The notes beneath the pieces were generated by a model, which was not told where the DNA came from, did not search any database, and was given only the letters and a program-made list of their open reading frames with translations. The translations under genes were made by a program, and so were the position numbers. Shown in pieces: positions 1,680 to 63,443 of a stretch of 64,000 nucleotides of DNA (position 1 is its first letter; each line of letters opens with the position of its first letter). The stretch is from the NCBI RefSeq assembly GCF_000768685.1, contig NZ_AVPK01000001.1, positions 434,001 through 498,000 on the forward strand, written 5' to 3'. The DNA comes from Knoellia subterranea KCTC 19937. Its GTDB lineage: Bacteria > Actinomycetota > Actinomycetes > Actinomycetales > Dermatophilaceae.

Positions 1680-3210
1680 AATCCTCGATGCGACCCTCAC
1701 GCCGAGCAAGCGGGAGCTCGTCGAGGCGTGGATGGGTTCACAGCGTTGGTATGCCGGCAAGGGCACCTCGCCGGACGTCCGTCGCCTTGCGTCGTGGAGA
1801 CTCGGCGACCCGGCCGGGCAGGTCGGCGTCGAGGTCATGATCGTGGCGGACGTGTCGGGCGCTTCCCCGGTGGTCTACCAGGTGCCGCTCACCTATCGCG
1901 GGGCACCGCTCCCCGGGGCTGAGGACGCGCTCGTCGGGACCATGGAGCATTCCGTCCTCGGGCCGCGGTGGGTCTACGACGCACCCCACGACCCGGTCTA
2001 TACCACTGCGCTCCTCGAATTGATCCAAGGTCGGGTACGAGCCGAATCCAGCTCTGCCAGTGACGAATTCGACGACACCGTGGTTGCGACCGCCGGCCCG
2101 ACCTGGTCCCACGCGGTGACCGTGCGCGGATCGTCAGTGCTCAAGGGCGAGCAGTCGAACACCTCGATCGTCCTCGACTGCGTGTCCGCCGACGGGTCTG
2201 CGCTGCCGGTCATCGTCAAGGTGTTCCGGATGTTGTCAGCTGGCGAGAACCCCGACGTCGTGCTCCAGTCGGCGCTGCGTGCAGCCGGGTCCGAACGCGT
2301 GCCCGCCGTCGTCGGATCCGTTGCAGGACAGTGGCCCGAGCCCGATCCGGCCGCGACCGCGGACGGTGAGACGAACGCGGACGGCGGGCGGACGGCATAC
2401 GGGCACTTCGTCTTTGCCCAGGAGTTCCTGCCCGGCGTCGAGGACGCGTGGCGGGTCGCGCTGCGCGCGGTCCGACTCGGCGAGGACTTCACGGGTCCGG
2501 CGCGCGCCCTCGGGGAGGCCACCGCCGAAGTGCACGCGACCCTCGCGACCGCCCTCGGCACGACGGCCACGAGTCCCGACGTCGCCCGAACCATCGTCGA
2601 CGAGATGCGCGCTCGATATGCCGCGGCCGCCGACGAGGTCCCCGCCCTGCACGACCACGACGCGGCTGTGGCGGCGATCCTTGATGCCGCCCTCGACGTG
2701 AATTGGCCTGCGCTGCAACGGATCCACGGCGACTACCACCTCGGACAGGTGCTGCACACCACCGACGACGGGTGGATGCTGCTCGACTTCGAGGGCGAGC
2801 CGCTGCGGCCCCTCGCCGAGCGCAGCCAGCCCGACCAGTGGATCCGCGACATCGCCGGGATGCTCCGCTCCTTCGACTACGCCGGCGGCGCCGTCGAGCA
2901 CTCCGGCGGCGAGTCCGCGCGGGCGTGGGTGGCGAGCGCGCAACAGGCCTTCCTCGACGGCTATGCCGCGGTGGCTCATGAGGACCCGCGCCGTCGCCCG
3001 GCTCTGCTTGCCGCCTTCGAGCTCGACAAGGCGATGTACGAAGTCGTCTACGAAGTCCGCAACCGTCCGTCGTGGGTCGACATCCCGCTGGCTGCCATCG
3101 AGCGCCTCGCGACGCAGTTCTCGACCCCGCCCGACTCCCCCGCACCGTCCACGACAACGTCCGCACCCGACGCACCCGACGCATCCGCAGCACAGGAGGA
3201 CACCCCGTGA
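1672..3210 (+). CDS. mak: Maltokinase (Mak/Pep2)
   Basis: ATP-dependent kinase making maltose-1-phosphate, the donor used by GlgE to build alpha-1,4-glucan. The chosen GTG start at 1672 gives a 512-residue protein beginning [20 protein letters not shown], and it overlaps the treS stop. The aminoglycoside-phosphotransferase-like kinase core is seen in [11 protein letters not shown] (about residue 352, catalytic-loop Asp) and LLDFEGEP (about residue 373, metal-binding Asp). QRWYAGKG near the N-terminus is typical of the family cap domain. Its last codon overlaps the GTG of glgB, so treS, mak and glgB read as one unit. GlgE itself is not in the window and would be expected upstream. Length and motifs fit the family; no oddity seen. 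Confidence 0.94.
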
Positions 3211-5579
3211 CCCCGACCCCTGCCCACGAAGTCAGCGGTGCCATCAACGCCCTCCTCCAGGGGCGGCACCAACAGCCGCACGACCTCCTCGGCCAGCACC
3301 TCGAGGACGGCGGCCTGCGCATCCGCGCACTGCGTCCCATGGCTGCCGGCGTGCGCGTGCACTTCGCCGACGGCGAGGTGATGTCGCTCGACCACGAGGC
3401 GGAGGGCGTGTGGTCGGCCGTGCGTGAGGGCGCCACGGAGACGATGGACTACCGGCTGCTCGTCAACTGGGGCGACGGCTACGAGCACGTGCAGGACGAC
3501 CCCTATCGCTTCGCTCCAACGCTCGGTGAGATCGACCTGCACCTCGTCGGCGAGGGGCGCCACGAGGAGCTGTGGACGGTGCTCGGGGCACGCGTGCACG
3601 AGTACCCCGGGCCGCTCGGCACCGTGCGCGGGACGTCGTTCGCGGTGTGGGCACCGCGGGCCAAGGCGGTCCGCGTCGTCGGCGACTTCAACGGCTGGGA
3701 CGGTCGCGTCCACCCGATGCGACTCATCGGCAAGAGCGGCGTCTGGGAGCTGTTCATCCCCGAGGTCGGTGCCGGCGCGGTCTACAAGTACGAGATCCGT
3801 GGTGCCGACGACGTCGTCCGCACGAAGGCCGACCCGATGGCCCGGCGCACCGAGGTGCCGCCGCTCACGGGTTCGGTCGTCGACGAGGCCGGGCACGAGT
3901 GGGGCGACTCCGACTGGATGACAGCCCGCGCCGAGGGCAACCCGCACAACGGCCCGATGAGCGTCTACGAAGTGCACCTCGGCTCGTGGCGACAGGGCCT
4001 GTCCTACCGCGAGCTCGCCGAGCATCTCGTGAACTACGTCCTCGACCTCGGGTTCACCCACGTCGAGTTCCTGCCCGTGATGGAGCACCCCTACGGGCCG
4101 TCGTGGGGCTATCAGGTGACCGGCTACTACGCGCCGACGTCGCGCTTCGGGACGCCGGACGACTTCAAGTTCCTCGTCGACACGCTGCACCAGGCCGGGA
4201 TCGGCGTCATCCTCGACTGGGTTCCGGGACACTTCCCCCGCGATGAGTGGGCGCTGGCTCGCTTCGACGGGCTGCCCCTCTATGAGCACCCCGACCCGCG
4301 ACGCGGCGACCAGCCCGACTGGGGCACGCACATCTTCGACTTCGGCCGCCTCGAGGTCCGCAACTTCCTCGTCGCCAACGCCCTCTACTGGCTCGAGGAA
4401 TTCCACGTCGACGGACTGCGCGTCGACGCCGTCGCCTCGATGCTCTATCTCGACTACTCCCGCAACGACGGCGAGTGGCTGCCCAACGTCCACGGCGGAC
4501 GCGAGCACCTCGAGGCGATCGGGCTGCTGCAGGAAACCAACGCCACGGCATACAAAAGGGTCCCCGGCATCGTCACGATCGCCGAGGAATCGACCTCCTG
4601 GCCCGGTGTCACCAAGGCGACGAGCGGCGGCGGCCTCGGGTTCGGGCTGAAGTGGAACATGGGCTGGATGAACGACTCGCTGCGCTATCTCGGCGAGCGG
4701 CCCTACGACCGGCAGCATCATCACGGCCTGCTGACGTTCGCGCTGATGTATGCGTTCAGCGAGAACTACGTCCTGCCGATCAGCCACGACGAGGTCGTCC
4801 ACGGCAAGGGCTCGCTCGTGAACAAGGCGCCTGGCAACCGCCAGGAGCAACTCGCGACCGTGCGGGCCTTCCTCGCCTACATGTGGGCGCACCCCGGCAA
4901 GCAGCTCCTCTTCATGGGCTGCGAGTTCGCCCAGCCGAGCGAGTGGGCCGACGGCAAGTCGCTCGACTGGTGGCTCCTTGACCAGCCCGCGCACTATCGC
5001 GTCCACAACCTCGTCAAGGAGCTCAACCGCGTCTATCGCGGACACCCGGCGCTGTGGTCGCTCGACTCCCAGCCGGCCGGCTTCGAATGGCTCGACGCGG
5101 ACGACAACCGGGGCAACACGTACTCGTTCGTCCGGTTCGAGGACGCCTCGCGGCAGTCGGGCGACGCTGTCGTGTGTGTCGTGAACTTCGGTGGTGACGC
5201 CAAGGAATGGCTGCGCGTCGGTGTGCCCTTCGGCGGCCAGTGGAAGGTCATCCTCGACACCAGCGGCTACGACCAGCACGGCACCCCGAGCCAGGCCGAC
5301 AACATCCTCGACGCCGCGCACGAGGGGTGGAACAACCAGCCCTTCCACGTCACCGTCCGCCTCGCCGGGCTCACCGCGCTCTACCTCGCGCCCGTCGTCG
5401 ATGAATCGGAGCCCGACGCCGCGTCCGAGTCCGAGCTCGAGTCCGACGATCCCGCTCCCAAGGCCGAGTCCGACGAGCCCACTGCCGAGCTCGAGCCCGC
5501 GTCGGAGGCGGTCGCCGAACCGGACACCACAGAGCCAGCGGACGCATCCGCACCCAACCCCGCGAAGGAGACGCCGTGA
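3207..5579 (+). CDS. glgB: 1,4-alpha-glucan branching enzyme GlgB with acidic C-terminal tail
   Basis: GH13 branching enzyme that introduces alpha-1,6 branches in glycogen or the related cytosolic glucan. Start chosen at GTG 3207, which overlaps the maltokinase stop (GTGA) and gives 790 residues. An N-terminal beta-sandwich/CBM48 region precedes the TIM barrel. Catalytic motifs are [10 protein letters not shown] (Asp, about residue 406), IVTIAEES (Glu, about 457) and [10 protein letters not shown] (Asp, about 525). After the normal end of the fold, from about residue 731, a roughly 60-residue tail very rich in Glu, Asp, Ser, Pro and Ala follows. It is low complexity and probably disordered; its role is unknown. 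The stop overlaps the pgm start, continuing the coupled operon. Confidence 0.96.
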
Positions 5580-7240
5580 CGACCTCTCGCGCCGGACAGC
5601 CGGCCCAGCCCTCCGACCTCGTCGACCTCCCCCACCTGGTCACGTCCTACTACGCGCTCAAGCCCGACCCCGACAACATCGACCAGCAGGTCGCCTTCGG
5701 CACGTCCGGTCACCGCGGGTCGTCGCTGAAGACGGCGTTCAACGAGGACCACATCCTCGCGACGACCCAGGCGATCGTCGACTACCGCCGGTCGCAGGGC
5801 TTCGATGGACCGCTCTTCCTCGGGCGTGACACCCACGGCCTCTCCGAGCCGGCGTGGGCATCGGCGCTCGAGGTCCTGGCGGCCAACGACGTCACCGTCC
5901 TCGTCGACTCGGCCGACCGCTACACGCCGACACCTGCGGTGTCGCACGCGATCCTCGTCGCCAATCGCGGCAAGGTCACCGGAGTCGACGGTATGCCGTC
6001 CGGCGCCGGTCTCGCAGACGGCATCGTCGTGACGCCGTCGCACAACCCGCCCTCCGACGGTGGGTTCAAGTACAACCCCCCACACGGCGGTCCGGCCGAC
6101 TCGGATGCGACGAAAACCATTGCGGCGAGGGCCAATGAGCTCATCAAGGGTGGTTTGAAGGACGTCAAGCGGATCCCGTTCGCGCGCGCACGAGCCAGCG
6201 CGACGGCATACGACTTCCTGGGAACGTACGTCGACGACCTGCCCAACGTCGTCGACCTCGCCCGCATCAAGGAAGCGGGGATCCGCATCGGCGCCGACCC
6301 GCTCGGCGGCGCTGCGGTCGACTATTGGGGCGCGATCGCGGAGCGGCACGGCATCGACCTCACCGTCGTCAACCCGCTCGTTGACGCGACGTGGCGGTTC
6401 ATGACGCTCGACTGGGACGAGAAGATCCGGATGGACTGCTCGTCGCCGTCGGCGATGGCGTCGCTCATCGGGCGCAAGGACGAGTACGACATCGCGACCG
6501 GCAACGACGCCGACTCCGACCGTCACGGCATCGTCACGCCCGATGCCGGACTGATGAACCCCAACCACTATCTCGCCGTCGCGATCCAGTACCTCTACGG
6601 TGGCGCGCGACCGCAGTGGCGCGAGGACGGATTCATCGGCAAGACGCTCGTGTCGAGCTCGATGATCGACCGCGTCGCAGCAGACCTCGGTCGTCGGCTC
6701 GTCGAGGTGCCGGTCGGCTTCAAGTGGTTCGTGCCGGGGCTGCTCGACGGCTCCGGACCCTTCGGTGGGGAGGAGTCTGCTGGCGCGTCGTTCCTCCGCA
6801 TGGACGGGTCAGTCTGGACCACGGACAAGGACGGCATCATCCTCGCCCTCCTCGCCTCCGAGATCCTTGCGGCGACGGGCAAGACCCCGAGCGAGCACTA
6901 CGGCGAGCTGACAGCGCGACACGGCACACCGGCATACGCGCGCATTGACGCCGCAGCGAACCGCGAGCAGAAGGCGAAGCTGGCCGCCCTGTCCCCCGCC
7001 GCCGTAACGGCGGAAACCCTTGCGGGAGAACCGATCTCGGCCAAGCTGACCGAAGCACCGGGCAACGGTGCGGCGATCGGCGGACTCAAGGTCGTCACCG
7101 AGTCGGCATGGTTCGCGGCGCGGCCGAGTGGCACCGAGGACGTCTACAAGATCTATGCCGAGAGCTTCAAGGGCGAGGACCATCTCGCCCAGGTGCAGGC
7201 CGAAGCGAAGGACGTGGTCAGCGCTGCGCTCGGGGCCTGA
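5576..7240 (+). CDS. pgm: Phosphoglucomutase (alpha-D-glucose phosphate-specific)
   Basis: Interconverts glucose-1-phosphate and glucose-6-phosphate, linking the glucan operon to central metabolism. GTG start at 5576 overlaps the glgB stop by four bases. The 554-residue length fits the bacterial Pgm family. The signature regions are [10 protein letters not shown] near residue 42, the phosphoserine loop [11 protein letters not shown] (Ser near residue 155), the metal loop [10 protein letters not shown] near 310 and the phosphate-binding [10 protein letters not shown] near 515. It ends only two bases from the stop of the convergent YeiH-type gene, leaving no room for a dedicated terminator between them. 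Confidence 0.96.
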
Positions 7241-8316: not shown

Positions 8317-9217
8317 TGCTCCACGCTGGCCGGACCTCGGCGTCCTCGAACTTCTGACCGCGGTCGGGTCGACGGGCAGTCTCGGGGCGGCCGCCAGGCA
8401 GGTCGGCATGGCCCAACCCAACGCCAGTCGGGCACTACGTGGGCTCGAGCGCGATCTGGGCCTCTCACTCGTCCACCGCAGCCCTCGGGGCTCTCGGCTC
8501 ACGACGCACGGCCTCCTCGTCGTCGAGTGGGCTGCGGCCGTCCTCGAGCCAGCGTTGCGCTTCGGCCTGGCCTGCGATTCGCTCCGGTCCCACGCTCGGG
8601 GTCGGCTGGGTGTGGCCGCGAGTCGCACGATCGCGGAGTATGCCGTGCCGCAATGGCTCTCCACGTTGCGCGAGGAGTCGCCAGAGGTGCAGGTCATGCT
8701 GCACGTCATGAACTCGGCCGAGGTGTGCGACGCCGTGCAGGAGGGCACGAGCGACCTCGGTTTCATCGAGGCACCGCGCGCGCCCCGAGGCCTCCGGTCG
8801 ACGGTGGTGGGCCGCGACCGACTGCTCGTCGTCGTCGCCCCCGCACACCCCTGGGCCCGTCGGCGGCGCCCGCTCACAGCGGCCGAACTCGCCCAGACGC
8901 CGCTCGTGCTGCGCGAACCGGGGTCCGGCACGCGCGAGACTCTGGAGGCCCGCCTCGCTCCGCTGGAGTTGGCGCCACCGGCGCTCGAACTGGGCAGCAA
9001 CGACTCGATCCGCATCTCCGTGGCGTCGGGGGCCGGGGCCACCGTCCTCAGTGAACTGGCCGTGCGTCAGGCCCTCGCGGCCGGCACGCTGGTCGAGGTG
9101 CCCGTGGCCGATCTCGACCTCGAGCGACGCTTCCGGGCCGTGTGGTCCGGGCCTGCCGCAGTGCGCGGACCGGCCAGCGACCTCGTCCGCATCGCACGCG
9201 CCACCGTCACCGCGTAA
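8312..9217 (+). CDS. LysR family transcriptional regulator
   Basis: 301-residue DNA-binding regulator. The N-terminal winged helix-turn-helix is seen around residues 12-65 (LLTAVGSTGSLGAAARQVGM, then SRALRGLERDLGLSLVHR), followed by a LysR substrate-binding fold with RDRLLVVVAPAHPW. No Shine-Dalgarno sequence precedes the ATG, but a -10-like TATCAT lies six bases upstream, consistent with leaderless translation. It is divergent to the YeiH-type exporter and probably regulates it in response to a small effector. It stops at TAA 9215-9217, immediately before the first of two 83-bp repeats. Confidence 0.92.
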   Translation: MGAPRWPDLGVLELLTAVGSTGSLGAAARQVGMAQPNASRALRGLERDLGLSLVHRSPRGSRLTTHGLLVVEWAAAVLEPALRFGLACDSLRSHARGRLGVAASRTIAEYAVPQWLSTLREESPEVQVMLHVMNSAEVCDAVQEGTSDLGFIEAPRAPRGLRSTVVGRDRLLVVVAPAHPWARRRRPLTAAELAQTPLVLREPGSGTRETLEARLAPLELAPPALELGSNDSIRISVASGAGATVLSELAVRQALAAGTLVEVPVADLDLERRFRAVWSGPAAVRGPASDLVRIARATVTA

Positions 9218-10395: not shown

Positions 10396-11652
10396 TCAGG
10401 CTCCCGACAGTCGATGCTGCTCGTCGGTGAGCCAGAGCTGGAGCAGTCCGCCGAAGTGGCCCTCGAACTTCTCCCACTCGTGCGTCGGGTAGGTCTGGTG
10501 GATCGTCGTCTGGAGCATCTTGCGGAACTCGTCCGAGCCGATCCACTCGTGCACCATCTCGTCGACGTGCGGCAGCGAGGTCGCGCAGAACTCCCAGTAG
10601 CGTTCGCTGTCGAAGTGCTCGTCCGCCAACCCCTGGTAGGCGGTGAGCTTGTCGCGGTAGTCCAGCGACTCATCGTCTGCGACGGCGAACCAGGGGTCCG
10701 TGTCGACCTGGGTCCGCGCGCGACGCCCGGTCACGGTGCAGAACACCGACCACCGCAGCAGCGCCTTCATCGCCCACGGGAAGTAGTAGTGGAGCGACGT
10801 GACAGCGACGTCGGGGCACGCGTTGGCGTAGTCGATCGGATAGACCCCGCCATCCTTGACGAGCATCTCGCAGGAGTTGAACTCCCACCGGAAGAACGCG
10901 TTGACCGTCTGCGCGATCGTGACGACCTCGCGCCCGGTCTCCTCCGCGAGGAAGCCGTGCGCGACGGCATACCGGTTGTGCATCGGCTCGTCGGGCTGGA
11001 ACTTCATCGTCATCGTCTCGGGCCCGATGGTCAGCGAGCGGGCAAACACCTCGAACCCGTCCACGGCCTTCTGGAGGTGCATGAGCATCTCGCCGGAGTC
11101 GTCGTAGGCCTGGTGCAGCGCCTCCCGATCCTTGATCATCGAGACCCCGCGCCACGCACCGCCGTCGAACGGCTTCATGAACATCGGATAGCCGAGCTCG
11201 TCGGCGATCGCGGCAAGGTCGAACTGCTTGTTGTAGCGCCGCGACGTGTAGGCCCAGCGCGCGTTGTCGACGGGGTTCTTGTAGGGCACGAGCACCGTGT
11301 CGGGCACGTGCATCCCGAGCCGCATCAGCGCGCAGTACGCCGAATGCTTCTCCATGGACTGGAAGGTGAACGGGCTGTTGAGCAGATAGACGTCGTCCAT
11401 GAGCGACACCTTCTTGAGCCACTCGCGCGGGTGGTAGTACCAGTGTGCGAGCCGGTCGATGACGAGATCCTGCCGCGGACGGTCGCGCAGGTTGAACGGC
11501 TCGATCGACAGCCGCTCCGTCGTCACCCGATGGTCCGCGCCGTCGGCCGTCCGGATCACCCCGAGTCGTCTGGCCAACGCCTCGAACGCCGTCGGCCAGT
11601 CGTCCTCCGCCCCGAGGAGGAGCCCGATGAGGTGGTCGGTCTTCGGTGCCAT
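10396..11652 (-). CDS. ATP-grasp fold protein of unknown function
   Basis: 418-residue protein; start set at ATG 11652 because a GAAGGGA ribosome site lies upstream and the protein begins MAPKTDHLIGLLLGAEDDWP. The middle shows an ATP-grasp core: a lysine in ELGYPMFMKPFDGGAWRGVS near residue 180, then acidic metal ligands in FNSCEMLVKDGGVYPIDYAN. Substrate is not recognisable; ATP-grasp enzymes ligate a carboxylate to an amine, thiol or similar. It is the distal gene behind two alpha/beta-hydrolases, the nearest of which stops 45 bases before this start; the three probably act together. Could be a peptide-, polyamine- or amino-acid ligase; I do not assign one. Confidence 0.75.
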   Translation of the reverse strand: MAPKTDHLIGLLLGAEDDWPTAFEALARRLGVIRTADGADHRVTTERLSIEPFNLRDRPRQDLVIDRLAHWYYHPREWLKKVSLMDDVYLLNSPFTFQSMEKHSAYCALMRLGMHVPDTVLVPYKNPVDNARWAYTSRRYNKQFDLAAIADELGYPMFMKPFDGGAWRGVSMIKDREALHQAYDDSGEMLMHLQKAVDGFEVFARSLTIGPETMTMKFQPDEPMHNRYAVAHGFLAEETGREVVTIAQTVNAFFRWEFNSCEMLVKDGGVYPIDYANACPDVAVTSLHYYFPWAMKALLRWSVFCTVTGRRARTQVDTDPWFAVADDESLDYRDKLTAYQGLADEHFDSERYWEFCATSLPHVDEMVHEWIGSDEFRKMLQTTIHQTYPTHEWEKFEGHFGGLLQLWLTDEQHRLSGA

Positions 11653-11697: not shown

Positions 11698-12447
11698 TCA
11701 GACAAAGCGTGGGAGATGGTGCGCCAGCTGCTTCTGCCACCACGGCCAGTCGTGGGCGCTGTCGTGCCCCCACACGTCGAGCTCGTGGCGAATTCCCTTC
11801 TGCGCCAGCAGTTCTGCGAACGCTCGCGTCCCCGGCAGCGACCCGGTCGGTGTCACCTCGAACGGCCCCTCCCCCACGACGAGGAGGACGGAGAGTCGGG
11901 AACGGAGCCACTCGAGGTGGTCACCATGCAGACCCGGCACGTATGCCGTGGGGTTGGCGAAGTAGGTCGCGTCGCCGAGGTCGCCCCACGAGTTCCAGGA
12001 CGTCGGGTCGTAGTTGCCCGAGAAGCCCATGGCCAGGGTGGCGATGTCGGCGCGTTGCAACGCGAACTGGACGGCGTGATAGGCGCCGAGTGATGGCCCG
12101 AAGGTGATGAGGTCGAGGTCTCCCCCGCCGGTCTGTTCCGAGATCCATGGGACGACGGCCTGTTCGATCCACGCGTGATAGACGCCGTGCCGTGCCGCTC
12201 GCTCGTCGGTGGGCACGTCGTTGGCGGACCAGGTCCAACCGTCGAGCGAATCCACAGCGAAGACGGTGACCCGTCCGGCGTCGACGAGTGGTCGGATCGC
12301 GTCGAGCAGTCCGCGCCCCTCGAAGTCGGCGGCACTACCGCCCTCGCACGGGAAGGCCAGCAGTGGCCGACCGAAGTGGCCGTGGCGCACCACCCTGAGC
12401 TCGGCGTCGTGGCCGGGCACTCGCAGATGGGCGTCAGCGCGCTGCAT
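11698..12447 (-). CDS. Alpha/beta-hydrolase (esterase-like)
   Basis: 249-residue hydrolase; ATG 12447 chosen because it falls five bases after the stop of the preceding hydrolase gene. The nucleophile elbow is FGPSLGAYHAV (Ser near residue 118), and a late His in WGHDSAHDWPWW can complete a triad. LAFPCEGGSAADFEG near the start resembles the oxyanion-hole strand of the esterase-D/PHB-depolymerase-like group. No signal peptide, so cytoplasmic. Lies between a Fes-like hydrolase and the ATP-grasp gene. Substrate unknown. Confidence 0.78.
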   Translation of the reverse strand: MQRADAHLRVPGHDAELRVVRHGHFGRPLLAFPCEGGSAADFEGRGLLDAIRPLVDAGRVTVFAVDSLDGWTWSANDVPTDERAARHGVYHAWIEQAVVPWISEQTGGGDLDLITFGPSLGAYHAVQFALQRADIATLAMGFSGNYDPTSWNSWGDLGDATYFANPTAYVPGLHGDHLEWLRSRLSVLLVVGEGPFEVTPTGSLPGTRAFAELLAQKGIRHELDVWGHDSAHDWPWWQKQLAHHLPRFV

Positions 12448-12452: not shown

Positions 12453-13508
12453 CTATCCTTGCGCCTCTGCCCACACGTCGCGCAACACTTCGACCAGATG
12501 CGGGTCGAGCGCGTCGCGCCACGCGGTGTAGTTGTGGAGGTCCGCGACCTCGGCATACGTCACGTCGTGGCCGGCGCGTTCGAGGGCTGCGGCCATCTGC
12601 CGGTTGTTGCCGGCGTTCTCCTCGAGGGCACCACAGGTCAGCCCGACGCGCAGCGGTCGAGCCGCCTGCGTGGTGTCGAGGACCTCCTGGACCTTGCGTG
12701 AGATCCGCCCGAAGTACTTGAAGCCGCTCTCCTGGTCATCGAGTTCGGCGTGGAAGAACGAGCCCGACTGGGAGAAGACGCCCCCGATCTCGTCCTCGTC
12801 GAGCAGCCCGACCAGCAGGGCCGTCAGACCACCGAGGCTGGCACCCACGACGACGACGCGACCGCGGATCGGCGCACGCTCTGCGATCCGCGAAAAGCCC
12901 TGTCCTGCAATGGTTCTCAGATAGCTCGGCGACCCCGAGTACCACGCATCCCGCAGCACGGGATGCGCCAACGCGACCCGGTGCGGAGGCAACTCCCCCG
13001 AGGCGATCTTGGCCGCCGAGAACTGGGTGATCGAGGCGAGTTGGTCGTACTCGGGCCCGTCGTTGACGAACATCAGCGGCAGCGCCTGCCCCTCGAAACC
13101 CTCCGGCGACCACACCGTCACCGGCACGTCGTCTGCCGTCTCCCCCTCGACCGCCATGGGAGTGAACGACCCGGGAACCGCAGGTGCCTCGAGCCAGGAC
13201 GGGATGGCATACCCCGGCATCTGCATCACGGAACGTGAGCCGAAGGCAGTCTCGACGGTCACGGGGTTGTCCGGGTCGAGGATCGTCTCCGCGGCGATCC
13301 CGTCGGCGACGGGTCGGGTGACGATGAAGCGGTACTCGAGCCGGGCGAGGCCGGGTCGGGGCAGGGCGAGCTCCCAGACGTCGTCCACGCGCGCGAACTC
13401 CCGGGGTCCGGGGATGGCCGGATCGCAGTCGAGCACGACGGACACCACGTCCGCGCCCCCGGCGTCGAACCGGAAGCGGACGTGGTCGTCGAGCAGCTTG
13501 GGCGGCAC
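12453..13508 (-). CDS. Enterochelin-esterase-like (Fes family) alpha/beta-hydrolase
   Basis: 351-residue protein from GTG 13508, one base after the stop of the YbbN-like gene. The N-terminal 130 residues form an immunoglobulin/CBM48-like sandwich (VRFRFDAGGADVVSVVLDCD), followed by the Fes/putative-esterase catalytic domain with elbow VVVGASLGGLTALL near residue 220 and a late His in ADLHNYTAWRDAL. True enterochelin esterases hydrolyse ferric-siderophore esters, but no siderophore genes are nearby, so a different ester or amide is likely. First hydrolase of the trio with the next esterase and the ATP-grasp protein. Confidence 0.8.
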   Translation of the reverse strand: MPPKLLDDHVRFRFDAGGADVVSVVLDCDPAIPGPREFARVDDVWELALPRPGLARLEYRFIVTRPVADGIAAETILDPDNPVTVETAFGSRSVMQMPGYAIPSWLEAPAVPGSFTPMAVEGETADDVPVTVWSPEGFEGQALPLMFVNDGPEYDQLASITQFSAAKIASGELPPHRVALAHPVLRDAWYSGSPSYLRTIAGQGFSRIAERAPIRGRVVVVGASLGGLTALLVGLLDEDEIGGVFSQSGSFFHAELDDQESGFKYFGRISRKVQEVLDTTQAARPLRVGLTCGALEENAGNNRQMAAALERAGHDVTYAEVADLHNYTAWRDALDPHLVEVLRDVWAEAQG

Positions 13509-13509
13509 C

Positions 13510-14508
13510 TCAGAAGAGGGCGTTCATGAGCGCCGTGCGACCCTTGCGCACCCGCTCGTCGTGGTTGCCGACGACGTTGAAGAGGTCGAGCAGGTGGGTG
13601 CGGGCCTTGTCGCGGTCGGCACCCTCGGTCGCCTTGACGGTGTCAATGAGGCGGGTGAACGCATCGGCGACGTGGCCGCCGAGGACGTCGAGGTCCGCGA
13701 CGGCGATCTGCGCGTCGACGTCCTCGGGGGAAGCCGCCGCGGCGGCCCGCACGGCCTGCGCGTCGATGCCGTCGGTCCGCTGCATGAGCCGCACCTGGGC
13801 CAGACCGAGCTCGGCCTCGTGATCCTTGGGGTTGAGTTCCAGAGCCTTCTCGTATGCCGTGACCGCACCTTCGAGGTCGCCGCGGTCGATCGCGTCGTAG
13901 GCCTCCTGGATGAGCGGGGGCAGCGGGGGCATCTCGTCGTCGAAGCCGTCACCCGAACCTGCCGGCGCCGGGCCGAGGTCGACCCGTCCGGTGATGCCGT
14001 TCTGCACGGCGGCCTGGACGAGCTGGTCGAGGACGGTTCGGATCTCCGCATCCTGCGGCAGGCCGGGGAAGAGCGGGACCGGCTGGCCCTGAAGGAGCCC
14101 GAAGGTGACGGGGACGCTGAGCTGGCCGAAGGCCTGCACGATCACCGGCTGGAAGGCCTGGAGGATGCCGGGCGAGGTCTGCACATCGGCGGAGACGACG
14201 AAGAGGCGCCCCTCGAGCTCGGCCGCAACCGCGGCGACGCGCTCGGCGAGACCGACGGTCTGCTGGTGCGCAGAGGACCAGATGACCAGGACCGCTGGCA
14301 CCTGGAGCGTGCGGTTCATGACCTCGGAGAAGGTCGCGTCGGTGACGTCGACGAGCAGCCCTGCAGGCAGACCGGGCGCGGACCCGGAGGGCGCTGGCTG
14401 GGCCGTGGGGCTCGACGGGGACGAGCCGGCCGGGGCGGGTTGCCCTCCGAGGGCGGACAGGTCGATGGCGCCGCGAGCGCCGGAGGGAGGCGTGGGGGTG
14501 GTGCTCAT
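13510..14508 (-). CDS. YbbN/CnoX-like thioredoxin-fold TPR protein without CxxC
   Basis: 332 residues. A Pro/Ala/Ser-rich N-terminus (about 50 residues) precedes a thioredoxin-like domain (VPAVLVIWSSAHQQTVGLAE, residues 70-160) in which the usual CxxC is replaced by SSAHQ. After an acidic linker, tetratricopeptide repeats follow (AYDAIDRGDLEGAVTAYEKALELNPKDHEAE begins near residue 210). This is the layout of YbbN/CnoX co-chaperones, which bind unfolded proteins and hand them to chaperones. Without cysteines a redox role is unlikely. It heads the tightly spaced run leading into the two hydrolases, perhaps only by position. Confidence 0.85.
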   Translation of the reverse strand: MSTTPTPPSGARGAIDLSALGGQPAPAGSSPSSPTAQPAPSGSAPGLPAGLLVDVTDATFSEVMNRTLQVPAVLVIWSSAHQQTVGLAERVAAVAAELEGRLFVVSADVQTSPGILQAFQPVIVQAFGQLSVPVTFGLLQGQPVPLFPGLPQDAEIRTVLDQLVQAAVQNGITGRVDLGPAPAGSGDGFDDEMPPLPPLIQEAYDAIDRGDLEGAVTAYEKALELNPKDHEAELGLAQVRLMQRTDGIDAQAVRAAAAASPEDVDAQIAVADLDVLGGHVADAFTRLIDTVKATEGADRDKARTHLLDLFNVVGNHDERVRKGRTALMNALF

Positions 14509-49150: not shown

Positions 49151-50425
49151 GTGACCGACGACCTCGACTTCGCCACCCTCGACCTCGACGACGAGAGCCC
49201 CGAGGCGCGCGCCCGGGTCCGCGGGTGGGTGGAAGCGATGCACCGGTCCTTCCACCTGTCGAGCCCGACCGAGGAGCACCTCGAGAAGTGGGCCGCCGTT
49301 CAACGCCTCGACCACGCCGTCCAGCGTGGCGCGTGGGAGCGTCCTGCGCTTCCCCTGGCCAGCCCGATCCCCGTCGCGACCTTCGGGTACTTCGACAAGG
49401 TGCTCAACACAGGCTCTTCGATGCTGCCCGTGCGGATGATCTCGGACGTCACCGTCTCCCCCACCCACCGCCGTCGCGGACTGATGCGTCGCCTCATGAC
49501 CGACCATCTCGACGAAGCCGTGCGCGACGGACTCCCGATTGCGGTGCTCACGGCCTCCGAGGGCGCGATCTACCAGCGCTTCGGGTTCGGCGTCGCGACG
49601 ACGGAGCAGTCAGTTCGCATCGACACCTCCGCGAAGTTCCGCCTGCGCCGGCCCGTCGACGACGGCGGACGGATCGTCCTCCTCGAGGTGGGCGAGGCCT
49701 GGGAACTGGTGCGGACGGCATACGGGAAGTTCCACGAGGCGACCAGAGGCAGCCTGGAGCGACCGGCGTTCTATGAGACGTGGCTGCGTGGCTACGACTG
49801 GGATGAGCAGAGCGAGGACCGCGCGCAGCGCCTCGCCGTGCGGCTCGATGCGGACGGCGAGCCCGACGGGTTCGTCGCCTGGAAGGTCAAGGGGGTCAAG
49901 GATGCCTTCGAGGTGCAGGTTGCAGACCTCATCGGCGTGACACCCGAGGCGCGAATCGCGTTGTGGCAGTTCGTCGCCGACATCGACCTCGCCACAGCCG
50001 CCGTCGCCCGCACGCCAAACCTTGATCCCCTGCCGTTGGCTCTCGTGGATCACCGCGTCGTGCAGGTCACCGGGCGCCCGGATCACGTGTGGGTTCGCAT
50101 CCTCGACGTCCCGGCCGCGCTGTCGGCCCGGCCTTGGTTTGCCGACGACGTCCTTCTCGTCCGCGTCCACGACCCACTCGGCCACGCCGACGGCACGTTC
50201 GAGATCGCGGCAGCCGACTGACGCGCGGAGGTGACCACAGCCGATGACGCAGACACGGCCGACGTGGAGCTGGACGTCGAGACGCTCGGGTCGCTCTACC
50301 TCGGCGGGACCGCGGTCGGCGATCTCGTCGACGCCGGCCGCATCACCGGCTCGGCCGACTCACTCGCCCGCTTCTCAGCGCTCACCGACGGCGGCCCCAC
50401 GCCTCGCTGCGCCACCCACTTCTGA
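49151..50425 (+). pseudogene. Eis-like GNAT acetyltransferase split by an in-frame TGA
   Basis: GTG 49151 begins TDDLDFATLDLDDESPEARA. The N-terminal GNAT domain has the acetyl-CoA loop VSPTHRRRGLMRRLMTDHL (about residues 98-116), followed by a second GNAT-like domain and part of the sterol-carrier-like C-terminal domain. A TGA at 50219-50221 stops the frame after FEIAAAD. The same frame then continues to 50425 with ADVELDVETLGSLYLGGTAV and ends CATHF, the usual end of Eis-family proteins, whose C-terminal carboxylate serves as catalytic base. As read, the protein (about 356 residues) lacks its catalytic terminus. One base change would explain it; sequencing error cannot be excluded. Confidence 0.85.
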
Positions 50426-50559: not shown

Positions 50560-52650
50560 TCAGGCGGGGGCGGCGGCGGTCAGGCGGGAGTCGCGGATGA
50601 CGTCGACGAAGCGGCCCATGATGTCGTTGAGCCCGAAGTCCTTGGGGGTGAACACCTCGGCCACGCCGATCGACTTGAGTTTCGCCGCGTCGGACTCGGG
50701 GATGATTCCACCGACGATGACCGGGATGTCGCCGGCGCCGGCCTCCTTCAGCCGCTCGAGGACCTCGGGCACGAGCTCCATGTGCGAGCCCGACAGGATC
50801 GAGATGCCGACGAGGTGGACGTCCTCGGAGACCGCCGCAGCGACGATCTGCTCGGGCGTCAGTCGGATGCCCTGGTAGATCACCTCGAAGCCGGCGTCGC
50901 GAGCGCGCACCGCGATCTGCTCGGCGCCGTTGGAGTGTCCGTCGAGGCCGGGCTTGCCGACGAGGACGCGCAGCTTCTCGCCGAGTTCGTCGCCCAGCTC
51001 GGCCACGCGCGTGCGCACGGCGGACAGCTCGGCACCGGCAGCGCCACCCGTGAGGCCCACCGAACCCGTGACACCGGTCGGCGCACGGAACTCACCGAAC
51101 ACCTCACGCAGGGCCTGGGCCCACTCCCCCGTCGTCACCTCGGCGCGAGCACACTCGAGCGAGGCCTCCATGAGGTTCTCATCGGTCGTCGCGACCTCGC
51201 GCAGGCGAGCCAGAGCCGCTGCCGCACGGTCGCGCCGCTCCGGGTCGGCGTCACGGTTTTCGCGCCACTCGCGCACGGCAGCGGCCGCAGCCGCTTCCAC
51301 ACCGGGGTCGACGGTCTGGATGGCCGTGTCGAGGTCGGCGGTGAGCGGGTTGGGCTCGGTCGTCTCGAACTTGTTGACGCCGACGATGATGTCCTCGCCC
51401 GCCTCGATCCGCTGACGGCGCAGGGCGTGCGACGCGACGAGCGCCGACTTCATGTAACCGCTCTCGACCGCGGCGACAGCGCCACCGAGGGACTGGACAC
51501 GGTCGATCTCGGCCTTGGCGCCGGCGACGAGCTCGGCGACCTTGGCCTCGACCACGGTCGAGCCGGCGAAGAGGTCGTCGTACTCCAGCAGGTCCGACTC
51601 GAACGCGAGCACCTGCTGCATGCGCAGCGACCACTGCTGGTCCCACGGACGCGGTAGGCCGAGCGCCTCGTTCCACGCCGGCAGCTGCACGGCGCGCGCG
51701 CGAGCGTCCTTGGACAGCGTGACGGCGAGCATCTCGAGGACGATGCGCTGGACGTTGTTCTCGGGCTGGGCCTCGGTCAGGCCGAGCGAGTTGACCTGGA
51801 CGCCGTAGCGGAAGCGCCGCTGCTTGGCGTCCGTGACGCCGTAGCGCTCACGGGTCAACTCGTCCCACAGCTCGACGAAGGCGCGCATCTTGCACATCTC
51901 CTCGACGAACCGGACACCGGCGTTGACGAAGAACGAGATGCGGGCGACGACCTCGCCGAAGCGCTCCTCGGGCACCTGCCCGGCGTCGCGCACGGCGTCG
52001 AGCACGGCGATCGCCGTGGACATCGCGTAGGCGATCTCCTGCACGGGCGTCGCGCCGGCCTCCTGCAGGTGGTAGCTGCAGATGTTGATCGGGTTCCACT
52101 TGGGGATGTCGGCGACGGTGTAGCTCACCATGTCGGTGATGAGCCGCAGGGAGGGTGCCGGAGCGAAGACGTAGGTCCCGCGCGACAGGTACTCCTTGAT
52201 GATGTCGTTCTGCGTCGTGCCCGCGAGCGCACGGACGACCTCGGCCGGGTCCTCGCCAGCGGCCTGCGCCTGCTCCTCGGCCGCGACCTGGTACATCGCG
52301 AGCAGCCACATGGCCGTCGCGTTGATCGTCATCGAGGTGTTCATCTGCCCGAGCGGGATCTGGTCGAACAGCGCGCGCATGTCACCGATGTGCGAGATCG
52401 GGACGCCCACCTTGCCGACCTCACCGCGCGCGAGGACGTGGTCGGGGTCGTAGCCCGTCTGGGTGGGCAGGTCGAAGGCCACGGACAGGCCCGTCTGGCC
52501 CTTGTCGAGGTTGCGCCGGTAGAGCGCGTTCGACGCAGCGGCACTGGAGTGGCCGGCATACGTGCGCATCACCCACGGGCGGTCGCGCTCCGGACGGGAG
52601 GGAGCGGCGGCGGACGAGGTTGCCGGTGCGGCAGAACGGTCTTCGGGCAT
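50560..52650 (-). CDS. B12-dependent acyl-CoA mutase, ethylmalonyl-CoA mutase (MeaA) type
   Basis: 696 residues from ATG 52650. The N-terminal catalytic barrel has GQTGLSVAFDLPTQTGYDPD, GQMNTSMTINATAMWLLAMY and TQNDIIKEYLSRGTYVFAPA (residues 60-190). The C-terminal cobalamin-binding domain has KPGLDGHSNGAEQIAVRA (base-off His in DGHSNG) and SILSGSHMELVPEVLE. One chain carrying both halves with no GTPase inserted fits Ecm/MeaA rather than fused IcmF. With Ccr, epimerase, MeaB and a cobalamin adenosyltransferase in the same window, ethylmalonyl-CoA to methylsuccinyl-CoA is the likely reaction; methylmalonyl-CoA specificity remains possible. Confidence 0.88.
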   Translation of the reverse strand: MPEDRSAAPATSSAAAPSRPERDRPWVMRTYAGHSSAAASNALYRRNLDKGQTGLSVAFDLPTQTGYDPDHVLARGEVGKVGVPISHIGDMRALFDQIPLGQMNTSMTINATAMWLLAMYQVAAEEQAQAAGEDPAEVVRALAGTTQNDIIKEYLSRGTYVFAPAPSLRLITDMVSYTVADIPKWNPINICSYHLQEAGATPVQEIAYAMSTAIAVLDAVRDAGQVPEERFGEVVARISFFVNAGVRFVEEMCKMRAFVELWDELTRERYGVTDAKQRRFRYGVQVNSLGLTEAQPENNVQRIVLEMLAVTLSKDARARAVQLPAWNEALGLPRPWDQQWSLRMQQVLAFESDLLEYDDLFAGSTVVEAKVAELVAGAKAEIDRVQSLGGAVAAVESGYMKSALVASHALRRQRIEAGEDIIVGVNKFETTEPNPLTADLDTAIQTVDPGVEAAAAAAVREWRENRDADPERRDRAAAALARLREVATTDENLMEASLECARAEVTTGEWAQALREVFGEFRAPTGVTGSVGLTGGAAGAELSAVRTRVAELGDELGEKLRVLVGKPGLDGHSNGAEQIAVRARDAGFEVIYQGIRLTPEQIVAAAVSEDVHLVGISILSGSHMELVPEVLERLKEAGAGDIPVIVGGIIPESDAAKLKSIGVAEVFTPKDFGLNDIMGRFVDVIRDSRLTAAAPA

Positions 52651-52708: not shown

Positions 52709-53758
52709 TCACGCAGCAGCGGCCCGGCGTGCCGGCGAGATGAGGTCGATCAGCCGCTCCACGGGCCCTCGCCCGATCCAGCGCGCCCACGCCCACGCGG
52801 TGACGATGCTCATGACGATGAAGCCGCCGAACACCAGCCAGCCACCCTCCGGGAATCGCGGGATGACGGGCACGAGCAGCGCCACGTGAGCGACGTATAG
52901 CGACAGGGCTACCTGCCCCACGAGAGCCAGCGCGCCCAGCACGGGCCGACCGGAATCGCGTCGCCTCCCAGCGATGTCGGCCGACATGACCAGCCCGTAT
53001 GCCGCGAGCGCCAGTCCGTTCTCCTGCGCCTGATCGGTGAAGTCACCGGAGAAGACGACCGGGTGCCCCACCAGTTCGGCGGCGAAGCTCGCCCACAGCA
53101 GGGCCACACCACCCATGAGGCACCACCACGTGGTCCGCTCGTCATCCAGGCCGCGCCGTGCCAGCACGGCACCGATGAGGAAGAGCGGCAGCAAGGTGAG
53201 GACCCGGTAGTGCGTGGTGGTCACGAGCCACTGGACGAGTGGATTCGCCGCCCACTCCGCGGTCGTGGCGGCACCACCGGCGACTCCTCCAGCCGCAGCC
53301 GTCACCCCCTCGATGACGTACGGCCCGGCCACGAACAGCACGGCTGCGATGCCGAGAAGCCATCGGCTCTCGAGGACGAGCAAGGGAGTCCCGACGATGA
53401 CCAGGAGACCGAGGATGTGCAGGATCACGGCCACCCAGTGATCGAGCTGCTCGAGGCCGACACCCAGCAGGATGAGCGCGGCTCCGCGGACCAGTGCCCG
53501 ACCCACGCCACGCAAGGCCGTCCCCCGCGGGAAGACCAAGCCCGCCGCGACGCCCATGACGAGGGCGAACAGCGGGGAGGCGAGGTCGTTGACCTGAAGC
53601 AGCACGAACGTGGCCGTCTCCGAGAGCCGCGAGCTGATGAACGGCAGGGCGTGCGCGACGACCATCGCGACGACGGCCAGCCCACGCGCCGCGTCCAGAC
53701 CGACGATCCGGCGGGGCGCGACGACCGTCGAGGCGGCGTCCGTTGCGGCTGCTGTCAC
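52709..53758 (-). CDS. Multi-pass membrane acyltransferase-like protein (DUF418/heparan N-acetyltransferase-like)
   Basis: 349 residues from GTG 53758, about nine membrane helices. The opening RIVGLDAARGLAVVAMVVAH and the PLFALVMGVAAGLVFPRGTA segment are typical of the YeiB/DUF1624 group, and RWIGRGPVERLIDLISPARR at the end resembles the DUF418 tail. Related proteins move acetyl groups across the membrane, but activity here is not shown. It starts 19 bases from the stop of the STAS gene on the same strand and may be co-transcribed with it. Confidence 0.78.
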   Translation of the reverse strand: MTAAATDAASTVVAPRRIVGLDAARGLAVVAMVVAHALPFISSRLSETATFVLLQVNDLASPLFALVMGVAAGLVFPRGTALRGVGRALVRGAALILLGVGLEQLDHWVAVILHILGLLVIVGTPLLVLESRWLLGIAAVLFVAGPYVIEGVTAAAGGVAGGAATTAEWAANPLVQWLVTTTHYRVLTLLPLFLIGAVLARRGLDDERTTWWCLMGGVALLWASFAAELVGHPVVFSGDFTDQAQENGLALAAYGLVMSADIAGRRRDSGRPVLGALALVGQVALSLYVAHVALLVPVIPRFPEGGWLVFGGFIVMSIVTAWAWARWIGRGPVERLIDLISPARRAAAA

Positions 53759-54230: not shown

Positions 54231-54896
54231 ATGGTCAACCTCACCCGCATCTACACCCGCACCGGAGACGACGGCACCACCGGCCTCGGCGACTTCAGCC
54301 GCACGAGCAAGACCGACCCTCGCCTGGCGGCCTACGCGGACGTCAACGAGGCCAACGCCGTCATCGGTGTCGTCCTCGCGACCGGTGAGCTGACCGACGA
54401 CGTCCGCGCCATCCTCGGGCGCGTCCAGAACGACCTGTTCGACGTCGGCGCCGACCTGTCCACCCCCCTGCTCGAGAACCCCGAGTACCCGCCCCTGCGC
54501 GTCCAGCAGGAGTGGATCGACGAGCTCGAGTGCGACTGCGACACCCAGAACGCCAAGCTCGAGAAGCTCCGCTCGTTCATCCTCCCGGGCGGCACCGTCG
54601 CCGCCGCCCACCTGCACCAGGCGACCACCGTCGTCCGTCGCGCCGAACGCACGACCTGGGCCGCGATCGAGACCCACGGAACGGACATGGGCACGACGAA
54701 GGGTGAGGGCGGGGTCAACCCCAGCGCCGCGGCATACCTCAATCGTCTGTCGGATCTGCTCTTCATCCTCGCGCGGGTCGCCAACCTCGACGCAGGTGGT
54801 GACGTCCTCTGGAAGCCCGGGGGCGGGCGCGCCGAGGCTCCAGCCAAGAAGGGCCGAGCCACCCGGCCGGACGACCCGGCGACCGACGACGACTGA
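54231..54896 (+). CDS. Cob(I)alamin adenosyltransferase, PduO type
   Basis: 221 residues from ATG 54231. Transfers adenosyl from ATP to cob(I)alamin to make coenzyme B12 for the mutase. The ATP loop is IYTRTGDDGTTGLGDFSRTS (residues 7-26), with FILPGGTVAAAHLHQATTVV and RRAERTTW further on, and LNRLSDLLFILARVAN near the end, all PduO hallmarks. A Lys/Arg/Asp-rich tail follows the fold. It is separated from the mutase gene by 1.6 kb, so linkage is by pathway rather than operon. Confidence 0.94.
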   Translation: MVNLTRIYTRTGDDGTTGLGDFSRTSKTDPRLAAYADVNEANAVIGVVLATGELTDDVRAILGRVQNDLFDVGADLSTPLLENPEYPPLRVQQEWIDELECDCDTQNAKLEKLRSFILPGGTVAAAHLHQATTVVRRAERTTWAAIETHGTDMGTTKGEGGVNPSAAAYLNRLSDLLFILARVANLDAGGDVLWKPGGGRAEAPAKKGRATRPDDPATDDD

Positions 54897-54905: not shown

Positions 54906-55334
54906 TCAGGCGACGTTGACGTTGAAGCCGGGCGGCGAGCTCTCGAGCCACGCCCGCAACGACGTGTATGCCGCAGGGCTCATCGCGAGTTCGTAGTCTC
55001 CCGACCGCGACCGACCACTCACGCACACTGCGTCCCCGGGCAAACCCGGCACCGCCTCGTCGAGCCGACGGGGGGCCCCGAAGTCGAGGTCGTGCCGGAG
55101 CCACGAGTGGTCGGGACGGAACGAGGGACCGACGACCGAGAACCAGTCGAGTCGATCCCCCGCGATGCGCGCCAGGCCGAGCCGCCAGCGGCGGTCACCC
55201 GTGTTGATCGCGCAGATCATGAGCGGCTGTCCGCCCGAGATCCACCGGCGGCGCAGCCACACGAACACGATGCTGGCCACCACAAGCGCGAGCGCCACCA
55301 CGAGCACGAGCTCAATGGTGGCGATCGGCGTCAT
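54906..55334 (-). CDS. DUF2550 membrane protein
   Basis: 142 residues from ATG 55334. One N-terminal membrane helix (IELVLVVALALVVASIVFVW), then a soluble domain with WRLGLARIAGDRLDWFSVVG and SGDYELAMSPAAYTSLRAWL. DUF2550 genes lie after atpC in many actinobacteria, as here (19 bases after the atpC stop). Function unknown; position suggests a link to ATP synthase assembly or simply conserved gene order. Confidence 0.88.
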   Translation of the reverse strand: MTPIATIELVLVVALALVVASIVFVWLRRRWISGGQPLMICAINTGDRRWRLGLARIAGDRLDWFSVVGPSFRPDHSWLRHDLDFGAPRRLDEAVPGLPGDAVCVSGRSRSGDYELAMSPAAYTSLRAWLESSPPGFNVNVA

Positions 55335-58121: not shown

Positions 58122-58218
58122 AGGTTTCCGCCTTCCTTGGTGTCTGGTGCTGCGTTGCCAACAAAACTTCGGGTATGCCGCGTGGTCGCCTTCGCGACCG
58201 GCTGCCCCGCCGCCGGAT

Positions 58219-59926: not shown

Positions 59927-59990
59927 AAGTGTGTGGGCTGTCGTGCTTGTTCAGATGTGGTCGAGCTCGAGAGCCCGGTATGCCGTGTGG

Positions 59991-62727: not shown

Positions 62728-63000
62728 TCACGACGTACCGTACCGGAGCCAGATGGTGTACAGCGACAGTGCCATCCCGGCCAGGATCCCGAGCACCACG
62801 ATGAAGCCGGTGCCGAGAAGCTTGTCGAGTCCGAAACCGATCGCGCCGAAGACAGCGGGGCCGGTGATGAGGTAGGCGATGACGGTCGCACCGAGGGCGT
62901 CGGCACGCGCGGTGGCGCTGGGCTTCTCGGGGTCGTCGTGCCAGGTCGAGAACGGCTCGTGGCCCTCGACACCCCTGGGGATCTTGCGCTCGTCGCTCAT
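62728..63000 (-). CDS. AtpZ/AtpI family small membrane protein
   Basis: 90 residues from ATG 63000. Two membrane helices (ATVIAYLITGPAVFGAIGFG and GFIVVLGILAGMALSLYTIW) with the short cytoplasmic start DERKIPRGVEGHEPFSTWHD. Proteins of this kind assist F0 assembly or magnesium supply to ATP synthase. Its ATG overlaps the stop of the preceding gene, and it lies 85 bases before atpB. Confidence 0.85.
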   Translation of the reverse strand: MSDERKIPRGVEGHEPFSTWHDDPEKPSATARADALGATVIAYLITGPAVFGAIGFGLDKLLGTGFIVVLGILAGMALSLYTIWLRYGTS

Positions 63001-63443
63001 GACCGCACTCCCCCGTCGAGCGAACCGGGGTGGATCTCGTGGCGCGCGCGGACGTAGCCCGCGATCTGGCCGACCTGCATGAGGACGGTCTGCACGATGG
63101 CCGACAGGGCGAACGAGCGCCCGTCCAGCCAGTCCACACCGCGCAGCGCAAGCACGATGGCCACGATGACGATGAGCTGCCCGAGGTAGACGACGCCCGC
63201 TCCCGCCATCGACGTCGCGGCCGGTCCCATGACCACCGCGGTGATGCCGAGGAGCCCCACGATGAGGACCACGAAGACGGTCGCGGCACCCGCGAGAGCC
63301 GAGAGCGCACCGCGCTCACCGGCATACGCCCAGAAGATTCCGGCCAACACCGGAAGGGCGATCATCCCGGGGACGAGAGCACCGCGCAGCATCATCCGGA
63401 CCGGGGTCCGTGGCGCGCGATTCGTGGTCACTGGGCTCTCCAT
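62997..63443 (-). CDS. ATP synthase protein I-like membrane protein
   Basis: 148 residues from ATG 63443 with four predicted membrane helices (LPVLAGIFWAYAGERGALSA, FVVLIVGLLGITAVVMGPAA, VYLGQLIVIVAIVLALRGVD and a C-terminal one). Position at the head of the atp operon and topology match actinobacterial AtpI-like proteins, thought to help assemble the c-ring. A perfect CRP-type palindrome lies 18 bases upstream of its start. Confidence 0.82.
   Translation of the reverse strand: MESPVTTNRAPRTPVRMMLRGALVPGMIALPVLAGIFWAYAGERGALSALAGAATVFVVLIVGLLGITAVVMGPAATSMAGAGVVYLGQLIVIVAIVLALRGVDWLDGRSFALSAIVQTVLMQVGQIAGYVRARHEIHPGSLDGGVRS

Follow-up and report, generated by a model that had tools for sequence, protein, structure and literature searches.

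A candidate DNA-uptake word, GTATGCCG, and its dialects in the actinobacterial family Dermatophilaceae

Introduction

According to the available portion of PMC12616744, uptake sequences are known in only two families, Neisseriaceae and Pasteurellaceae. The DNA uptake sequence (DUS) of the former and the uptake signal sequence (USS) of the latter are described, in the accessible part of PMC1626085, as sharing a density of about one copy per kb, no orientation bias, a spacing more even than chance would give, opposite pairs lying close together and a preference for non-coding DNA. The same portion reports flanking segments about one helical turn apart for the Haemophilus USS and subclade variants in Pasteurellaceae, and describes the Neisseria DUS as having no flanking motifs. 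The part of PMC3630211 at hand gives, for Neisseriaceae, DUS copies in the thousands, several dialects that follow clades, one genome carrying two dialects in near-equal numbers and DUS-free genomes within the family, and the excerpt of PMC4906244 presents the Neisseria receptor, ComP, as a minor type IV pilin. Here we describe GTATGCCG, an octamer that recurs throughout 64,000 nucleotides (the window; G000:C1:434001-498000) of the Knoellia subterranea KCTC 19937 genome. A DNA tag for self-recognition has so far been known from two Gram-negative families only; GTATGCCG looks like such a tag in actinobacteria.

Two further systems are relevant. Highly iterated palindrome 1 (HIP1, GCGATCGC) of cyanobacteria is a palindromic word of very high copy number which, in the partial account available, is tied to methyltransferases. 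In Micrococcus luteus, ComEA/ComEC and the tad loci are essential for transformation, as stated in the available text of PMC12849477, whose main text uses none of the terms 'uptake sequence', 'sequence-specific' and 'receptor'. Among the matches listed for the open-access literature, titles and the starts of abstracts described no actinobacterial uptake sequence, and the titles among the matches listed for the GTATGCCG string were all unrelated.

Results

A sharp octamer in and between genes

The window holds 38 exact copies of GTATGCCG, 19 on each strand, the first at 1749 and the last ending at 63327, while 100 dinucleotide shuffles of the window averaged 0.76 copies and never exceeded 4. 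For the heptamer GTATGCC the count is 39. These recounts agree with both figures of the first-pass annotation. The whole 3.57-Mb genome (G000) carries 2,444 copies (1,233 forward and 1,211 reverse), against 54 (22 forward and 32 reverse) for the same word read backwards. When the window was combined with 20 other stretches of this genome (458 kb in all), 289 copies were observed where a third-order Markov model expects 13.2, a ratio of 22, and the excess thus outlasts the background model by which it had been proposed to be judged. The word is sharp, in that no one-letter variant exceeds twice its expectation. Under the third-order model, 15 of the 24 variants fell below expectation and nine above it, with a highest ratio of 2.0 (21 against 10.5), and under a second-order model the pooled variants showed no excess (310 counted, 325.8 expected).

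Gene boundaries were taken from a purpose-written codon-usage gene caller rather than from annotation, which placed 424 genes in the 458 kb (85% coding). By these boundaries, 32 of the window copies are genic and six intergenic (27953, 38109, 46233, 49047, 58173 and 59978); the earlier claim had been at least five intergenic gaps with the word. It had also been claimed that the copies fall in different reading frames, and we found 12 in sense Tyr-Ala, 16 in antisense Ala-Tyr, two in sense Met-Pro and two in another antisense frame. The copies are as follows.

1749..1756, plus strand: genic, sense, Tyr-Ala frame
2393..2400, minus strand: genic, antisense, Ala-Tyr frame
4546..4553, minus strand: GlgB-like gene, antisense
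5991..5998, plus strand: phosphoglucomutase-like gene, sense, Met-Pro frame
6204..6211, minus strand: phosphoglucomutase-like gene, antisense
6930..6937, minus strand: phosphoglucomutase-like gene, antisense
8638..8645, plus strand: genic, sense
10965..10972, minus strand: genic, sense
11941..11948, plus strand: genic, antisense
12551..12558, minus strand: genic, sense
13852..13859, plus strand: genic, antisense
18693..18700, minus strand: genic, sense
19074..19081, plus strand: genic, antisense
22474..22481, plus strand: genic, sense, Met-Pro frame
26343..26350, minus strand: genic, sense
27001..27008, plus strand: genic, antisense
27953..27960, plus strand: intergenic, with extended flank TCCGCCCACCT
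32225..32232, minus strand: MeaB-like gene, sense
32429..32436, plus strand: MeaB-like gene, antisense
35707..35714, minus strand: genic, antisense
37009..37016, plus strand: genic, antisense
38109..38116, minus strand: intergenic
40753..40760, plus strand: gene with FAD-oxidoreductase and GCV_T domains, antisense
41373..41380, minus strand: gene with FAD-oxidoreductase and GCV_T domains, sense
41502..41509, minus strand: gene with FAD-oxidoreductase and GCV_T domains, sense
45304..45311, minus strand: 3-hydroxyacyl-CoA dehydrogenase-like gene, sense
45431..45438, plus strand: 3-hydroxyacyl-CoA dehydrogenase-like gene, antisense
46233..46240, plus strand: intergenic
48299..48306, minus strand: genic, antisense
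49047..49054, plus strand: intergenic, most of extended flank present
49716..49723, minus strand: genic, antisense
52554..52561, minus strand: start of methylmalonyl-CoA mutase-like gene, sense
52997..53004, plus strand: genic, antisense
54730..54737, minus strand: cobalamin adenosyltransferase-like gene, antisense
54966..54973, plus strand: genic, antisense
58173..58180, plus strand: intergenic, directly downstream of ATP synthase alpha gene, upstream flank A-rich
59978..59985, plus strand: intergenic, directly upstream of ATP synthase alpha gene
63320..63327, minus strand: genic, sense

Codon usage does not account for the word

A codon-pair or amino-acid habit (Tyr-Ala) could produce an excess of GTATGCCG, and 187 of the 214 genic copies in the 458 kb do fall in two reading frames. 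However, synonymous shuffling within genes (n = 50) kept a mean of only 21.5 copies and a maximum of 38. Another 72 copies lie between genes and three on boundaries, so that the word is about twice as dense in intergenic DNA (1.07 per kb) as in genes (0.55 per kb); by gene arrangement, intergenic density was 2.34 per kb between convergent, 1.51 between divergent and 1.03 between tandem genes. The tyrosine codons inside the context G_GCCG are TAT:TAC = 105:9, against 502:1,932 overall, so the rare TAT is favoured in the word context alone. Nor was enrichment seen in the 139 genomes sampled from 19 other families of the order, where the highest count was 167 copies (reversed control 184). Because of the shuffling result, the intergenic density and a TAT bias confined to the word context, we consider a codon habit refuted, with next to no probability left to it. 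The first-pass annotation had judged a codon habit alone insufficient, and its own check, in which the enrichment would be explained by codons with none between genes, does not refute the word.

Strand balance, spacing and inverted pairs

Over the 21 stretches of the K. subterranea genome no strand bias was found (chi2 10.7), and 81 word-rich genomes pooled gave 84,296 forward and 84,411 reverse copies; these figures are stretches and genome totals rather than positions mapped along a closed chromosome. The balance bears on whether GTATGCCG is a Chi-like octamer or a chromosome-segregation motif resembling the FtsK-orienting polar sequences (KOPS). Chi is likewise an octamer in excess, which speaks for such a motif. 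However, motifs of the Chi and KOPS type are polar with replication, and the dialects and the loss of the word within genera described below do not fit them either. Because no examined stretch has strand bias, we hold this explanation, and with it the earlier suggestion of a chromosome-organisation motif, to be extremely improbable.

The spacing test covered 493 kb in 5-kb bins (n = 96). Counts were more even than Poisson, with a variance-to-mean ratio of 0.72 over all 96 bins (P 0.019) and of 0.54 over the 88 bins at or above 0.66 GC (P 1.5e-4). The eight bins with GC below 0.66, a threshold set after a first look, held seven copies where about 27 were expected (P 6e-6), and bin GC correlated with word count over the 96 bins (Spearman 0.34, P 8e-4). 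To judge from GC and from gene content by eye, these low-GC bins would be acquired DNA. Of the four longest gaps without the word, three have a below-average GC (0.61, 0.63 and 0.67) and the fourth an ordinary one (0.69); among the three, one carries polysaccharide-type genes and one a transposase-like gene (by eye), and two extend to the end of the fetched stretch. Among neighbouring copies at most 60 bp apart, 13 pairs were on opposite strands, where about 5.7 were expected, and none were on the same strand. Five of these 13 pairs sit between convergent genes, and several form near-perfect hairpins.

Flanking positions and site conservation

The 72 intergenic copies are A-rich at positions -11 to -8, and the core is followed by T-S-Y-G-C-T-C-R-C-C-T. 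Since hairpin partners add to the flank signal between genes, coding copies were tested instead, against Tyr-Ala-G contexts lacking the word. Of 13 positions tested without correction, four had P < 0.05, namely T at +8 (41/106 in coding copies and 15/102 in the word-free contexts; P 1.5e-4), T at +18 (39/106 and 9/102; P 1.2e-6), G at +11 (27/106 and 12/102; P 0.013) and A at -8 (27/106 and 13/102; P 0.023). None of the remaining nine reached significance in coding copies. The core, the upstream A and the downstream T are separated by about one helical turn. Congeners also have A at -8, T at +8 and T at +18, in sequences that are partly orthologous and hence not independent. T at +8 recurred in five of six sets from other genera, including all three sets of other dialects, and the set pooled from five other genera prefers C there.

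Eight congeners align with parts of the window at 81-86% identity. Of the 145 K. subterranea sites aligned, 108 (74%) were intact in them, compared with 24.6% of control octamers at a distance of 12 to 60 bases and in the same codon phase. This comparison bears on whether GTATGCCG is the relic of an ancestral uptake word that now decays neutrally. Such decay would agree with the intermediate counts of some genomes, for example 404 copies in G104, where 40 kb also held more one-letter variants than expected (41 against 27.7). In the genus Knoellia, however, aligned sites are kept about three times as often as control octamers and one-letter variants show no excess, from which it follows that the word is still maintained there. 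We consider a neutral relic very unlikely.

Dialects within the family

The family sample comprised 149 genomes of 53 genera, Dermatophilaceae presumably in the GTDB sense. Genomes with at least 150 copies per Mb were called word-rich and those with fewer than 40 per Mb word-poor. Comparison with related genera, as the first-pass annotation had proposed, gave 81 word-rich genomes (30 genera), 53 word-poor (21 genera) and 15 intermediate, in contrast to the 19 other families. The genomes of Mobilicoccus massiliensis and Dermacoccus abyssi are word-poor (same word counts as G061 and G009), and Ornithinimicrobium cerasi has 12 copies of GTATGCCG in 21.6 kb.

Among the 15 intermediate genomes, eight have a different dialect. 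GGATGCCG reaches 3,619-4,480 copies in the intermediate genomes G016, G064, G103 and G118 and 3,949 in the word-poor G026, compared with 241-1,336 in genomes without that dialect. By genus, it was found in 2/2 genomes of g17, 1/1 of g26 and 4/4 of g44, two of them mixed. Two dialects occur together in G044 (GGATGCCG 2,195, GTATGCCG 1,217) and G079 (GGATGCCG 2,099, GTATGCCG 1,189). In genus g2, GGATGCCG counts of 1,336 in G001 and 1,210 in G134 lie above those of seven sampled congeners (614-949); the ComEC tree places g2 close to g44, and this excess is perhaps a decaying or weak dialect. GTATGCGG forms a dialect in all four g20 genomes (G020, G066, G093 and G112), with 511-1,204 copies and a reversed control of 87-107. 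Four word-rich genomes of g12 and g18 have 428-476 copies of GTATGCGG, close to the 511 of G093; since their reversed control is also high (271-461, against 88 in G093), only g20 was counted.

The ComEC gene tree (29 rows; 26 inner branches, 14 of them well supported and 8 unresolved) may differ from the species tree. In it, GGATGCCG stands on two separate branches, and word-rich and word-poor congeners lie side by side (G099/G125 and G025/G069). Read from such sequence comparisons, the dialects appear to follow phylogeny within the family.

Genera g37 (G037) and g38 (G038) have an unrelated 9-mer, CGAAGGGGG, with 46 copies where 2.6 were expected in 80 kb from the two genomes (stretches L124 and L125 of G037, L178 and L179 of G038). 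It lies in genes in several frames, between genes and in inverted pairs, and its one-letter variants stay close to expectation, apart from those at the final two positions (6 to 8 where 1.5 to 2.0 are expected). CGAAGGGGG is possibly the uptake word of these two genera.

No word judged comparable emerged when 23 further genomes, word-poor or intermediate, were scanned over 35-70 kb each. The strongest candidate, GAGGACGA in G069 (48 against 7.6), was set aside, as neighbouring words share the excess. GTACGCCG (stretches L126-L127 of G040, L180-L181 of G048, L166-L169 of G023 and G024, and L195 of G102) was not accepted as a dialect because its excess is small, 4- to 6-fold, and mostly coding where checked (28/31 copies in G040, 23/27 in G048), which suggests a codon habit or a weak dialect. 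Among side observations, GGAGCCGG and GGAGGCGG are each about 5-fold over expectation in 40 kb of G006 (L182-L183). In stretches of G001 (L116, L117, L212 and L232), CTGTGGACG occurs 10 times, nine of them intergenic; from its resemblance we take it to be perhaps a DnaA-box cluster.

Dialects and flanks also bear on whether an orphan methyltransferase or a methylation-linked repair system recognises GTATGCCG, the word being multiplied by repair bias or by selection for an epigenetic mark. The link of HIP1, another octamer of very high copy number, to methyltransferases in the partial account available gives this explanation a precedent; GTATGCCG has adenines on both strands, and methylation specificities can shift between relatives. 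However, HIP1 is palindromic whereas GTATGCCG is not self-complementary, and methylation by itself predicts neither dialects nor flanks one helical turn away, inverted pairs, even spacing or scarcity in low-GC DNA. We regard a methylation site as unlikely, while leaving it a small share of probability.

Uptake machinery

Homologues of ComEC were found in 145 of the 149 family genomes, of ComEA in 144 and of the T2SSE ATPase in 148, 146 of these over the cut-off. The three genomes in which no T2SSE match passed the cut-off (G006, G086 and G091) are all word-poor. The Tad locus of K. subterranea holds two T2SSF proteins, a DUF4244 small protein and two sortases, and its TadE and Tad matches are weak, below the Pfam cut-offs. 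From its position, we take the DUF4244 small protein to be the Flp pilin. The two sortase genes (Pfam Sortase; L196:12310-12765 and L196:13201-13635) are located between the TadC-like gene and the Flp-like one. The Tad ATPase gene of K. subterranea is at G000:C28:101554.

A comparison of one Tad locus and the com locus covered 20 genomes, 12 word-bearing and eight word-poor, and no gene in it separated the two groups. The three most skewed gene clusters, assigned by eye, were considered and rejected as linked to the word: cluster 22 (acyltransferase-like; 8/12 against 2/8), cluster 24 (membrane pyrophosphatase-like; 6/12 against 1/8) and cluster 25 (methyltransferase-like; 1/12 against 6/8). 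The skew of the latter two is partly an artefact, as both lie at the ends of fetched stretches. An apparent loss of ComEA in G009 and G010 was due to start-site errors of the gene caller, and tblastn covers ComEA there in one frame.

Some further observations concern machinery genes. In the word-poor G069 (L229), ComEC is split over two frames, and in the word-poor G049 (L233) its match is limited to residues 264-796, with ComEA about 29 kb away; a sequencing error is possible in both. In K. subterranea, two fragmentary T2SSE matches (G000:C1:413745 and C1:428092) lie about 5-20 kb before the window, and about 12 kb beyond them are a transposase-like gene (L104:545-1606, by eye) and a 10-kb word-free stretch.

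Discussion

We consider it likely that GTATGCCG, together with its weaker flanks, is a DNA-uptake sequence serving natural transformation in a Gram-positive family. Among the candidates of the first-pass annotation, a DNA-uptake-type word is the one well supported by the excess, the lack of orientation, the even spacing, the inverted pairs, the flanks, the dialects and the conservation; from these we infer uptake, and what follows on receptor and mechanism is a proposal. GTATGCCG with its flanks (A-rich at 8 to 11 bases before the core, T directly behind it and T about 10 further on) would be a tag that transforming cells recognise at their surface on double-stranded DNA. The surface receptor would be sequence-specific, probably one of the minor pilins of a Flp/Tad-type pilus, and would bind tagged DNA and hand it to ComEA and ComEC. 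Tagged DNA would then recombine into chromosomes more often than untagged DNA, by which sites would spread on both strands, to about one per 1.5 kb, and be kept. Should receptor specificity change, the genome would follow, giving the dialects GGATGCCG and GTATGCGG or a different word such as CGAAGGGGG; should specificity be lost, the word would decay. On balance we also lean towards a wider interpretation, in which sequence-specific uptake of self DNA arose independently in this Gram-positive family, most of which lacks the type IVa pilus of Neisseria and Haemophilus, with a Flp/Tad-linked receptor, and the word changed by single-letter drift, GGATGCCG arising on two branches, and in one group by replacement with CGAAGGGGG.

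Several findings weigh against an uptake sequence. The machinery does not predict the word, because ComEC, ComEA and T2SSE ATPases are equally common in word-poor genomes, and four genomes with fragmented assemblies (G029, G033, G034 and G085) carry the word with no ComEC or ComEA match. PilM (PilM_2), a marker of the type IVa pilus on which Neisseria and Haemophilus rely, was not found in the K. subterranea genome and was found in five of the 149 family genomes, and in the 20-genome comparison of one Tad locus and the com locus no pilus gene was tied to the word. Of the 16 other genome-and-word sets, many of which are small, only 11 were denser between genes than within them. Only in Knoellia is the extended flank strong, with the other flank positions weak outside this genus, and the low-GC depletion concerns eight bins under a GC threshold picked after a first look. 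For natural transformation in five genera of the family, no paper was among the matches listed.

If GTATGCCG is an uptake sequence, it would be a third case of uptake specificity, in a different phylum and with a different envelope and pilus, and self-specific uptake would be a repeatable outcome. The dialects would offer a set for tracking the receptor, and the family, with single-letter drift and one word replacement, would be a natural experiment in the co-evolution of receptor and genome. Many genera of the family would be transformable when donor DNA bears the right word, a direct benefit for genetics.

How does GTATGCCG compare with the described systems? The K. subterranea genome shows all five features common to USS and DUS, in density, orientation, spacing, opposite pairs and non-coding preference. 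Set beside the USS as far as the available text describes it, GTATGCCG is likewise a short asymmetric core at near one copy per kb, without orientation bias, regularly spaced and in opposite pairs, with a preference for non-coding DNA, flanks at a helical turn and subclade variants. It differs in its unrelated sequence, a core of eight rather than nine bases, flanks on both sides and a high-GC Gram-positive host, and a PilM-type type IVa pilus gene was not found in the K. subterranea genome. With the DUS, as portrayed in the portions at hand, it shares thousands of copies, family dialects that appear to follow clades, two-dialect genomes and word-free relatives, whereas its sequence is again unrelated and no ComP counterpart was found in the one Tad locus compared over 20 genomes. 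GTATGCCG is neither GCCGTCTGAA-like nor AAGTGCGGT-like. Like HIP1 it is an octamer of very high copy number genome-wide, but its sequence is asymmetric, and dialects, flanks and inverted pairs go with it. As for Micrococcus luteus, homologues of the ComEA, ComEC and tad genes that the available text names as essential are all present in K. subterranea. By its signatures, then, GTATGCCG would class as an uptake sequence, and by its word and probable pilus type it would stand outside both known kinds.

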